Assembly: GCA_947501265.1 (NCBI GenBank)
Contig: CANMVY010000001.1
Location: 1-64,000, forward strand
Length of the DNA: 64,000 nt
Direction: 5' to 3'
Source: Bacteroidota bacterium
Lineage (GTDB): Bacteria > Bacteroidota > Bacteroidia > UBA7662 > CANHCV01
In this document: piece by piece, positions 21,848 to 26,199 of the stretch
How positions within the stretch are numbered: the first letter of the stretch is position 1
Layout: each line of letters starts with the position of its first letter
Translations under genes and position numbers: made by a program
Notes under the pieces: generated by a model
Database searches by the model: none
Seen by the model: only the letters and a program-made list of their open reading frames with translations
Told to the model about the DNA's origin: nothing

Positions 21848-22054
21848 AGTCTATTTTTCGATTTAAAAAAATTTTTTTAGACCACTCTAAAAATCATTTA
21901 AACCGTTTCACTTCGTTGAAGAAAACTCATCCTGCTTCCATTTTGTCTACTTTCGATGGAAATAAATGGCTGAAAACTGGGAGTACCCCATGTTTTGAAT
22001 AACTTCAAGAAAAGGCAATCGAAAATTTTCCAAACTTCCGTATTTTTACCGAGT

Positions 22055-22747
22055 ATGAACGCTTCAAAAGTAATCCTCACCGTAACAGCCCACCCCGACG
22101 ATGAGGTGTTGGGATTTGGTGGAACATCGTTTGCCCTATCGAAAAAGGGATACACCGTTTACAACCTCATTTTATCTGGACAAGTCGATGCGCGTCAGCA
22201 CCGTCCGGATGTTGAAGATTTGCACCGGCATACGGCGAATGCTCAAGAAATCATTGGAGCTGAAAAACCAATCTTAGGGCCGTTTCCCAATATCAAATTT
22301 AATACCGTCCCTCACCTGGATTTGGTTCAATTCATCGAAAAACACATCGAAGAAATCCAACCCGATTACGTGTTTACGCACCATCCTTACGACCTCAACA
22401 ACGACCATTACCACACCTCCAAAGCATGCCAAGCGGCCATTCGATTGTTCCAAAGAAAACCGGTGAAGCCCATCTCTGGCTTTTATTTCATGGAGATTTT
22501 GTCTTCTACCGATTGGGCGTTTCCGGTGGATGGGCAGAATTTTACCCCCACCGCATTTTGGGAAATTGGAGAAGAAGGCGTTCAAAAGAAAATTGAAGCA
22601 CTTCGCTGTTACGAAGGCGTGATGCGCGACTTCCCGCATCCTCGCAGTGAAGAAATCCTGAAAGGATTGGCCGCCTATCGGGGCGGGCAAGCAGGATTGA
22701 AGTATGCCGAAGGATTCCAAGTGGTGTTTCAACAAAATATTTTCTGA
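22055..22747 (+). CDS. PIG-L/LmbE-family sugar deacetylase
   Basis: A protein of about 230 residues of the zinc-dependent N-acetylglucosaminyl deacetylase (PIG-L/LmbE) superfamily. The metal/catalytic motif TAHPDDEVLGFGG is at the N-terminus and the third metal ligand is in THHPYDLNNDHYHTSK. These enzymes remove N-acetyl groups from sugar conjugates. The start is ATG 22055; a TTG at 21995 would add 20 unrelated residues. The stop overlaps the next gene (TGATG). With a phosphoglycosyl transferase and a formyltransferase following directly, a role in surface-glycan or glycolipid building is more likely than bacillithiol synthesis, but BshB-like activity is not excluded. Confidence 0.88.
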   Translation: MNASKVILTVTAHPDDEVLGFGGTSFALSKKGYTVYNLILSGQVDARQHRPDVEDLHRHTANAQEIIGAEKPILGPFPNIKFNTVPHLDLVQFIEKHIEEIQPDYVFTHHPYDLNNDHYHTSKACQAAIRLFQRKPVKPISGFYFMEILSSTDWAFPVDGQNFTPTAFWEIGEEGVQKKIEALRCYEGVMRDFPHPRSEEILKGLAAYRGGQAGLKYAEGFQVVFQQNIF

Positions 22748-23310
22748 TGTATTCCTTGATCAAAAGAGCCATTGATATTTTGGCGTCCCTGTCTGTATTG
22801 ATCGTCCTATCACCCATTTTAATGCTGGTTGCGGTCATCATCTACCTACAAGATTTTGGCAATCCCATTTTTAAACAGCAACGAATGGGGAGAAATGGGG
22901 AGCCCTTCAACTTTTACAAGTTCAGAAGCATGCCCCTCAACACCCCGAATGTGGAGTCGAAAGACCGCGATAAACTAACGGTTACGCCCTTTGGCAAGAT
23001 TTTACGCCGTTCCAATTTGGATGAAATTCCGCAGTTGTTCAACATTTTGAATGGCGACATGAGTTTAATTGGTCCCAGGCCTTCGATCCTATCCCAAACC
23101 GAACTAACTGAGATGCGCAAAGCCAACGGTTCCATTCGGCTTCGTCCGGGCTTAACCGGTTGGGCGCAAGTGAACGCTTATGATTTCATGCCGAACGAAG
23201 TAAAAGCCGAGTTTGATGGGTATTACGCCAAAAACATCAGTTTCGGATTGGATGTGAAAATTGTTTTGAAAACGTTGGGTTATTTAACCAAAAAACCACC
23301 TACCTATTGA
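22747..23310 (+). CDS. Undecaprenyl-phosphate sugar phosphotransferase (small PglC-like)
   Basis: A 187-residue monotopic phosphoglycosyl transferase. It has one N-terminal hydrophobic re-entrant helix (about 12-32), then KQQRMGRNGEPFNFYKFRSM, the catalytic Asp/Glu pair in LRRSNLDEIPQLFNIL (D-E), the SLIGPRPS motif and LRPGLTGWAQVN. The family transfers a phospho-sugar from a UDP-sugar to undecaprenyl phosphate, beginning a lipid-linked glycan. The size matches the minimal PglC form, without the large N-terminal domain of WbaP. Its start overlaps the deacetylase stop and the formyltransferase begins 1 bp after its stop. Confidence 0.93.
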   Translation: MYSLIKRAIDILASLSVLIVLSPILMLVAVIIYLQDFGNPIFKQQRMGRNGEPFNFYKFRSMPLNTPNVESKDRDKLTVTPFGKILRRSNLDEIPQLFNILNGDMSLIGPRPSILSQTELTEMRKANGSIRLRPGLTGWAQVNAYDFMPNEVKAEFDGYYAKNISFGLDVKIVLKTLGYLTKKPPTY

Positions 23311-23311
23311 T

Positions 23312-24133
23312 ATGAAAATTGCCTTTTGCACCTGCGTACAAATTGGTTTGAGCTGCATGGAAGCCATCTACGCTTCCGGAGGTTCTTTGGATTTGATTTT
23401 GAGCATTCCCGACGAGAAAGCCAGGAAGAAGTCGGGTAGAATTTATGTAGATGCATTTGCGCAACAGCATGGAATACCTGTTTTTAAGTCCAACCACATC
23501 AACGATGAAGCGGTGAAACAGGAATTGAAGGATCGTGGAATTGACTGGTTGATCATCATTGGATGGTCGCAAATTGCTTCGAAAGAAGTCATTTCCATTC
23601 CCACCTTTGGAACCATTGGTGCCCACCCTACCCTTTTGCCCGAAGGTCGCGGAAGAGCAGCCATTCCATGGGCCATTCTAAAAGGACTACACCAAACCGG
23701 GGTTTCTTTTTTTAAAATGGATGAAGGAGTAGATACGGGTGAAATTTTAGGTCAGGAAATTGTTCCTATCGCTCCAAATGAAACCGCCACTCTTTTGTAC
23801 GACAAGGTGAATACCGCTCACGAAACCCTGATTCAGAAGATTTTCCCCTTGTTGAAAAAAGGAGAAATTCGGGGAACGGTACAAGATGAATCCAAGGCCA
23901 CGTATTGGGAAGGTCGCCGTCCGGAAGACGGACAGCTTTTGCCCAGCATGAGCGTTGCAGAGGTAGATCGATTGGTTCGTGCTACCACGCGACCTTACCC
24001 CGGCGCTTTTTGGATGGATGGCCAAAGAAAAGCCATCATTTGGAGTGGGACGATGGGACATCACGGTCCGAACGCACTCCTTTTTGCTGATGGGCATTAC
24101 ACCCCTACCGAAATGGAGTGGGTGGAGGAGTAA
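23312..24133 (+). CDS. Formyltransferase-family protein (sugar N-formyltransferase-like)
   Basis: A 273-residue protein with the formyltransferase fold used by Fmt, ArnA and sugar N-formyltransferases, donating from 10-formyl-tetrahydrofolate. The catalytic His and folate loop are in GAHPTLLPEGRGRAAIPWAI and the catalytic Asp is in GVSFFKMDEGVDTGEIL. The usual N-x-H triad Asn is replaced by Gly here. A C-terminal OB-like part follows (about 205-273). The genome's true Fmt is expected elsewhere. With a deacetylase and an undecaprenyl sugar transferase in the same operon, N-formylation of a glycan amine is the best guess. Confidence 0.82.
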   Translation: MKIAFCTCVQIGLSCMEAIYASGGSLDLILSIPDEKARKKSGRIYVDAFAQQHGIPVFKSNHINDEAVKQELKDRGIDWLIIIGWSQIASKEVISIPTFGTIGAHPTLLPEGRGRAAIPWAILKGLHQTGVSFFKMDEGVDTGEILGQEIVPIAPNETATLLYDKVNTAHETLIQKIFPLLKKGEIRGTVQDESKATYWEGRRPEDGQLLPSMSVAEVDRLVRATTRPYPGAFWMDGQRKAIIWSGTMGHHGPNALLFADGHYTPTEMEWVEE

Positions 24134-24994: not shown

Positions 24995-25004
24995 CAATGG
25001 GCAG

Positions 25005-25093
25005 CGGAGGGGGCGGGATTCGAACCCGCGGTACCGGTTTCCCAGTACGACAGTTTAGCAAACTGTTGGTTTCAGCCTCTCACCCACCCCTCC
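25005..25093 (-). tRNA. tRNA-Ser(GCU)
   Basis: An 89-nt class II tRNA on the minus strand. Acceptor stem GGAGGGG / CCCCTCC, anticodon loop tttgcta giving GCU, long variable arm, GGTTCGAATCC T-arm and G discriminator. CCA is not encoded. It decodes AGC and AGU. Confidence 0.97.
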
Positions 25094-25161: not shown

Positions 25162-26199
25162 ATGAAAAAATTCCTGCTTTTGTTTTTTCTGCTCCCGCAA
25201 ATCATTCATTCTCAAAACTTAAATTGGGAGGTCAATGTTTCCAAAGGAATTGGAACTTTCATTCCGCATACCTATAAAATCCGACACCTCGTTTCAGGTT
25301 ATGAATCTCCGTTTGCATTGAGCTTATTGAATCAAACCAAGCAAACCCAAGTTTTTCTCCATTACTTTCCTTCCCAAAATCCTGTAATTGGTTCTCAATG
25401 GGCAATAACTCCAACCCATGTTTATCCCATTATCAGCACTTCCACATTTAAATTCCAATGGCTGGGTGGTGCAGGAATAGCACGAATTGAAAATCCATTT
25501 CATCAGATTTCCAATCCCAAAAACATTGCAATCGGTTCGAAATGGAACGTTTCCATTTTAACCGGATTTAAAACCAAATTTCAATTCAACGAATGGAACA
25601 TAGGAACCGAACTTTTTGCTCAACACGCCAGCAACGGATCCTTTAAAAAACCAAACCTGGGTTTGAATTACCTCAACTTCTATTTTACGGTTGGAAAATC
25701 ACTATCAAATCTTCCGAAGTTTCGGTTAGAAGTTCCAAAAACAATCATTCCACCATCTTCCATATATACAACCTTCTGTGCGTTTGTCAATCAAGCCAAT
25801 CTTCCTGGAGCACCAACATCTTTGGTTTTTTCTAGCCAAACAGGTTGGATTCAAATGATATCGAAGAAAAAATTCTTCACCACAGGAATGGATATCTTCT
25901 TGGATGGTTCTAATCGAAAAACCCTTTCCCAAATTTTAGAAAAAGATTTAACACCATTTCAAACAGCACAAATTGGCTGGCAATTGGGGTATGGGTTCTG
26001 GGGAAATGGTCAATTAGCCGCATTTGTACAACAAGGTGTGTATTTGTATTCCCTCGAAAATCTGGAAGGAAAACTTTATCAGAGAATAGGTATTCGACGG
26101 ATCATGAATGAACAATTACAATTCACGGCTTCCTTAAAAACACACTTTGCCCGAGCCGACCATCTAGAATTTGGAATTTTATACCTTTGGAAATCATGA
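25162..26199 (+). CDS. PagL-type lipid A deacylase / acyloxyacyl hydrolase family
   Basis: A 345-residue protein with signal peptide 1-18 (MKKFLLLFFLLPQIIHSQ) and outer-membrane barrel character. The segment QHASNGSFKKPNLGLNYLNF matches the PagL active-site pattern H-x-S-N...N-x-G with catalytic His and Ser. PagL removes the 3-O-acyl chain from lipid A at the outer membrane. The protein is roughly twice the size of enterobacterial PagL; the extra C-terminal strands are usual for the Bacteroidota branch. The next gene overlaps its stop as ATGA, indicating coupling with a surface lipoprotein. Confidence 0.75.
   Translation: MKKFLLLFFLLPQIIHSQNLNWEVNVSKGIGTFIPHTYKIRHLVSGYESPFALSLLNQTKQTQVFLHYFPSQNPVIGSQWAITPTHVYPIISTSTFKFQWLGGAGIARIENPFHQISNPKNIAIGSKWNVSILTGFKTKFQFNEWNIGTELFAQHASNGSFKKPNLGLNYLNFYFTVGKSLSNLPKFRLEVPKTIIPPSSIYTTFCAFVNQANLPGAPTSLVFSSQTGWIQMISKKKFFTTGMDIFLDGSNRKTLSQILEKDLTPFQTAQIGWQLGYGFWGNGQLAAFVQQGVYLYSLENLEGKLYQRIGIRRIMNEQLQFTASLKTHFARADHLEFGILYLWKS

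Follow-up and report, generated by a model that had tools for sequence, protein, structure and literature searches.

A three-gene operon in a Bacteroidota bacterium may well encode a module that initiates a surface glycan and exchanges the acetyl group on the amine of its lipid-linked first sugar for formyl, a reading to which we assign a probability of roughly 0.55. The operon combines genes for a PIG-L deacetylase, a PglC-type phosphoglycosyl transferase (PGT), and a formyltransferase-fold protein (FMT), all on the forward strand at positions 22055-24133 (Table 1). Positions refer to the window, i.e., the entire stretch of 64,000 nucleotides that was analysed (assembly GCA_947501265.1, contig CANMVY010000001.1, positions 1-64,000, forward strand).

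Table 1. Genes of the operon and features located downstream of it, with positions in the window.
Feature	Position	Strand	Characteristics
PIG-L/LmbE-family N-deacetylase	22055-22747	+	230 aa; H13-P-D-D-E17, D117-H118
Small monotopic PGT, PglC-like	22747-23310	+	187 aa; S22-P23, D92-E93 dyad, GPRP, RPGLTG
Formyltransferase-fold protein, ArnA/Fmt-like two-domain	23312-24133	+	273 aa; G103-x-H105-P, D141
tRNA-Ser(gct)	25004-25093	-	~0.9 kb downstream of the operon
PagL-like lipid A 3-O-deacylase	25162-26199	+	after tRNA-Ser(gct); PF09411, 32.5 bits

Operon structure and selection

The stop codon of the first gene and the start codon of the second share one base (TGATG, 22745-22749), and a single base separates the stop codon of the second gene from the ATG of the third. 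An earlier note, made from the sequence alone, had described this arrangement, and its open reading frames and positions proved to be accurate. Its three family assignments were likewise borne out by profile matches above the respective cut-offs (PF02585, 63.3 bits, cut-off 28.2; PF02397, 192.2 bits; PF00551, 88.3 bits, cut-off 26.1). An alternative in-frame TTG start at 21995 would extend the PIG-L protein to 250 aa; the ATG at 22055 was taken as the start because the relatives begin near this ATG.

The genes of the trio are under purifying selection, as judged from two congeners (omega of 0.05-0.16 against L001 and 0.03-0.05 against L011). Their G+C content (0.466 vs 0.424, sd 0.019) is the top value of 124 stretches of the same size, but the increase is mild and is not taken as evidence of transfer. 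A promoter scan gave no signal exceeding that of shuffled sequences, and a terminator scan was uninformative, with 7 candidates vs 5.6 expected.

Conservation of the gene trio

A scan of genome contigs for FMT, of which the best 80 of 210 relatives were kept, showed all three genes in adjacency in each of the 14 loci whose FMT shares an identity of at least 50% with that of the window. The co-occurrence that the earlier note had proposed to look for in Bacteroidota is not due to chance and reaches beyond the phylum. Two of the loci belong to the genus of the window (L001 and L011); the other twelve stem from Bacteroidota (Flavobacterium, Taibaiella, Algoriphagus, Marinifilum, and MAGs of Chitinophagaceae, Flavobacteriales, and Cryomorphaceae), a deltaproteobacterial MAG, a Bacillaceae MAG, Indiicoccus, and two Clostridia MAGs. 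The order PIGL-PGT-FMT is found in the window, in Bacteroidota, and in the deltaproteobacterial MAG; in Bacillota, the order is PIGL-FMT-PGT. Among 395 evenly sampled Bacteroidota genomes, FMT matches above 200 bits occurred in ten, each with an adjacent PIG-L gene, and the close FMT type of the window was present in three of these ten; within the phylum, the close family of the window FMT is rare.

In L013 (5559-6677) and L014 (12677-14084), a second, divergent pair of PIG-L and Gly-type FMT genes follows a glycosyltransferase (GT) in the same cluster; the pair in L014 lies just before FucNAc genes, and L013 ends at that point. These tandem pairs suggest that the next sugar undergoes an N-acyl exchange as well, and the two pairs in the Clostridia cluster fit an arrangement of one pair per amino sugar.

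The deacetylase and the phosphoglycosyl transferase

Residues H13, D15, D16, E17, D117, and H118 of the PIG-L protein are invariant across 18 aligned relatives, and the HPDDE and DH motifs are presumably those of the metal site. The nearest solved relative by sequence is diacetylchitobiose deacetylase, and the predicted fold is nearest to BshB, diacetylchitobiose deacetylase, and MshB (Z 22-26.5). The protein thus has the superfamily and fold of BshB, and the earlier note had considered a deacetylase acting on bacillithiol precursors, in which case its placement in the operon would be accidental. However, it reaches only 39.7 bits against the equivalog model of BshB1 (cut-off 182.5), and the other of the two PIG-L proteins encoded in the genome, which is located elsewhere, is a BshB1 (294 bits). 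A BshB1 above the cut-off is also present in six of eight other genomes with the trio, and the linkage of the window PIG-L to PGT and FMT is fixed, so a role in bacillithiol synthesis is rejected as extremely improbable.

The PGT is of the small monotopic type, consisting of the PF02397 domain alone, at a length within the expected ~180-200 aa and with a D-E dyad whose residues are invariant in all 17 aligned PGTs. Its best PDB match is PglC (8e37, E 9.5e-40). It is one of five PF02397 proteins encoded in the genome.

The formyltransferase-fold protein

The best PDB match of the FMT is ArnA (E 2e-33), and its predicted fold (pLDDT 93) superimposes on that of ArnA over 268 residues (Z 30, rmsd 2.4), with Z 28-30 for ArnA and Fmt taken together. 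The catalytic motif N-x-H...D is nevertheless incomplete; the N-L-H of ArnA aligns with G-A-H, so that His and Asp are retained and Asn is absent, a change to Gly that is set in an otherwise ordinary fold, given the match to ArnA. An alignment of 20 relatives, among them the PIG-L-linked second copies, shows no variation at G103, H105, or D141, and S86-Q87 and P106 are also conserved. The Asn of the N-x-H motif holds the formyl oxygen. Because this residue of ArnA and Fmt is missing, formyl transfer by the window FMT is not assured and could be modified or even absent; this is the chief weakness of the acetyl-to-formyl reading.

The substitution is not peculiar to the window. Among all 143 sequences, 104 have Asn at this site, none of them with a PIG-L gene within 2 kb, and 37 have Gly, 34 of them with such a neighbour; two have a gap, one with PIG-L. 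These neighbours were identified by tblastn with the window protein, and some of the loci are short. On a quick tree of 91 rows (no mixture model; every second Asn row dropped beforehand), the Gly label requires 3 changes vs a mean of 29.0 after shuffling. A class-wide sample contributed nine more loci: six Gly-type FMTs with PIG-L, and two Gly-type (WGIHAS) and one Ala-type FMT without. FMTs with Gly at the Asn site tend to have a PIG-L gene next to them, although the association is in part a contrast between families, since the Asn-type rows are mostly housekeeping Fmt.

Several further loci show other gene combinations. On alphaproteobacterial plasmids (L180:9001-11596 and L181:9001-11626), GxHP-type FMTs are paired not with PIG-L but with ATP-grasp and HAD genes, and the glycan loci in which they lie also have a PglF-like dehydratase. 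The GWYY...WGIHAS clade (L127, L190, and L193) has Gly at the Asn site and no PIG-L in the locus. PIG-L relatives in L155:1504-2684 and L165:301-2172 adjoin a distant FMT-like protein with the motif HES-LP-GKGWSP. An archaeal cluster on a Halorussus plasmid (L182:4883-9791) contains neuC, PIG-L, neuB, and two FMTs, one of the GxHP and the other of the N-x-H type, which points to a nonulosonic acid as the site of N-acyl exchange.

Neighbouring genes and the identity of the sugar

An SDR reductase or a PglF-like UDP-GlcNAc 4,6-dehydratase accompanies the trio in 11 of the 12 loci from other genera (each in seven by tblastn); the exception is L005, where tblastn detected neither within 10 kb. By the same method, FnlA is present in seven and a GT in eight of these loci, and clustering reveals further GTs in L006 and L007. 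Among the neighbours, family scans identified FnlA-like, WecB, WcaI-like GT, SDR, and PseB/PglF-like proteins. The typical order is FnlA ... FnlC - GT - reductase - PIGL - PGT - FMT, with the reductase directly upstream of PIG-L in L002, L003, L006, and L007; the dehydratase follows FMT in some loci, and the order is rearranged in Bacillota. The reductases are assigned at the level of the SDR family, with no equivalog model naming a QuiNAc reductase.

These neighbours suggest that the first sugar is a 6-deoxy-HexNAc resembling QuiNAc, which makes the plain HexNAc envisaged in the earlier note less likely. The formation of UDP-D-QuiNAc by a 4,6-dehydratase and a 4-reductase has been shown for Bacillus cereus (PMC4514872).

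In the genome of the window, counterparts of the genes found around the trio in relatives, including homologues of the dehydratase and reductase of the D-QuiNAc pathway, are located on other contigs (C2 and C8). Contig C2 carries a GT (41% to that of L004) that overlaps an SDR reductase (48% to that of L006) within a small GT cluster; the absence of a glycosyltransferase stated in the earlier note is therefore true locally, within the operon, but does not extend to the whole genome. Since FnlA was not among the matches of the dehydratase search in this genome, the next sugar probably differs from that of the relatives. Contig C8 (L111:7533-14182) encodes a bacillosamine-type set of two aminotransferases, two small PGTs, a NeuD/PglD-type acetyltransferase, and a PglF-like dehydratase. 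Plain diNAcBac initiation by the trio is disfavoured by this separate PglF/PglE/PglD-like set with two PGTs of its own and by L006, which carries both sets.

Proposed function and alternative explanations

In the proposed pathway, the PGT would take HexNAc-1-phosphate from a UDP-HexNAc and attach it to undecaprenyl phosphate; the sugar is most likely a 6-deoxy form, e.g., D-QuiNAc. PIG-L would then strip the 2-N-acetyl group from the lipid-linked sugar, and the FMT-like enzyme is predicted to formylate the freed amine with 10-formyl-THF as donor. The product would be an Und-PP-linked N-formyl amino sugar, on which GTs encoded elsewhere would extend the chain. A free glycolipid, which the earlier note had offered as another product, is less likely because the trio of the relatives lies within full polysaccharide loci and the genome has its own GT-reductase pair.

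The logic of initiation, deacetylation, and formylation, already outlined in the earlier note, is strengthened by the occurrence of the trio across phyla, by the separate BshB1, and by the finding that 11 of the 12 loci from other genera contain no DegT aminotransferase, so that the free amine most likely stems from PIG-L; the missing Asn of the FMT weakens it. The parts of the pathway have different foundations: the identity of the sugar is suggested by the dehydratase and reductase neighbours and the B. cereus work on UDP-QuiNAc, formyl as the putative added group by the FMT family, and the lipid-linked stage by the linkage to PGT, with which a swap on the nucleotide sugar would also be compatible.

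Such a swap, in which UDP-QuiNAc would be converted via UDP-QuiN into UDP-QuiNFo ahead of the PGT step, is the chief rival, which we consider possible but rather doubtful. Sugar N-formyltransferases among the fold matches of the FMT whose titles name the sugar (for example WbkC, FdtF, QdtF, WlaRD, and VioF) refer to nucleotide sugars, and three alphaproteobacterial loci (L016-L018) have FMT and PIG-L but no PGT within 2 kb. Against this stands the fixed trio, including PGT, in all 14 close loci; moreover, the eponymous PIG-L acts on lipid-linked GlcNAc, and 4-reductases and PGTs have mostly been described on N-acetylated sugars. It is very unlikely that PIG-L and FMT serve different sugars or positions, with FMT formylating an aminotransferase-derived amine at C4 in the manner of VioF. 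A DegT aminotransferase is clustered with the genes in alphaproteobacterial relatives (L016-L018, L020, L026, and L179), where the amine may be at C4 because the aminotransferase is close by, and aminotransferase genes are present on C8 of the window genome; however, the one closer locus that has such a gene, L006, carries it together with a PglD-like gene and a second PGT of its own.

The absence of Asn bears on the nature of the transferred group. That the window FMT modifies the PIG-L-generated amine with a different one-carbon or acyl group, or draws on a different donor, would agree with the tree-clustered change from Asn to Gly and with the conserved S86-Q87 and P106, but H105, D141, and the two-domain fold closely match ArnA, and the loss of one residue need not alter the donor, which leaves this explanation quite unlikely. 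A broader proposal, tentative and on balance unlikely, is that the G-x-H-P FMTs form a distinct class that has an altered catalytic centre, co-evolved with PIG-L, and re-acylates the freed, lipid-linked amino sugar. The GxHP FMTs without PIG-L in L180 and L181 and the WGIHAS clade count against the swap model. An acetyl-to-formyl exchange on the lipid-linked first sugar is the reading we prefer.

Significance and comparison with known systems

The usual explanation for N-formyl sugars is that an amine made by transamination is then formylated. If the preferred reading is true, exchange by a deacetylase and an FMT on the lipid-linked first sugar would provide a further way of making N-formyl glycans, and PIG-L beside a G-x-H-P FMT beside a PGT would be a gene signature by which such glycans could be found. 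The swap would be a small chemical change that, judging from the genes, apparently recurs in distant bacteria, and the role of the 'catalytic' Asn would be directly testable in nature. If the G-x-H-P FMTs are indeed a class of their own, the group they add may be formyl, transferred with no Asn at the customary site, or a different small moiety, and with PIG-L they would make up an N-acyl-exchange module of general use, acting at one or two points of a glycan, across bacteria and perhaps archaea. Each enzyme class is already known; no description of the PIG-L/FMT exchange, its spread across phyla, or the Gly signature was found by searches of open-licence PMC papers, which is weak evidence of absence.

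The window FMT resembles the UDP-L-Ara4N formyltransferase domain of ArnA in its whole-length two-domain fold and in the His and Asp of the motif, but it differs in having Gly for Asn and other operon partners, and its amine probably originates from deacetylation instead of transamination. It shares the fold and a likely role in N-formylation of surface sugars with the O-antigen sugar N-formyltransferases WbkC, QdtF, FdtF, WlaRD, and VioF; these enzymes, however, formylate transamination-made amines on nucleotide sugars and have probably kept the N-x-H motif. The PGT is similar to PglC, the initiating PGT of Campylobacter, in its small size, D-E dyad, and best PDB sequence match, but no PglD/PglE-type genes adjoin it, such a set being located with two other PGTs on C8. 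The deacetylase has the HPDDE and DH motifs and the fold of the PIG-L family (BshB, MshB, diacetylchitobiose deacetylase, and GlcNAc-PI deacetylase) but is far from the models of BshB1 and BshB2, and FMT and PGT are always adjacent in its close relatives. Finally, the trio of the relatives adjoins a dehydratase and/or SDR reductase as in the UDP-D-QuiNAc pathway (Pdeg/Preq of B. cereus, WreQ of Rhizobium), with the reductase on the side of the window assigned at family level, whereas the accessible part of the B. cereus account (PMC4514872) contains no PIG-L/FMT step.
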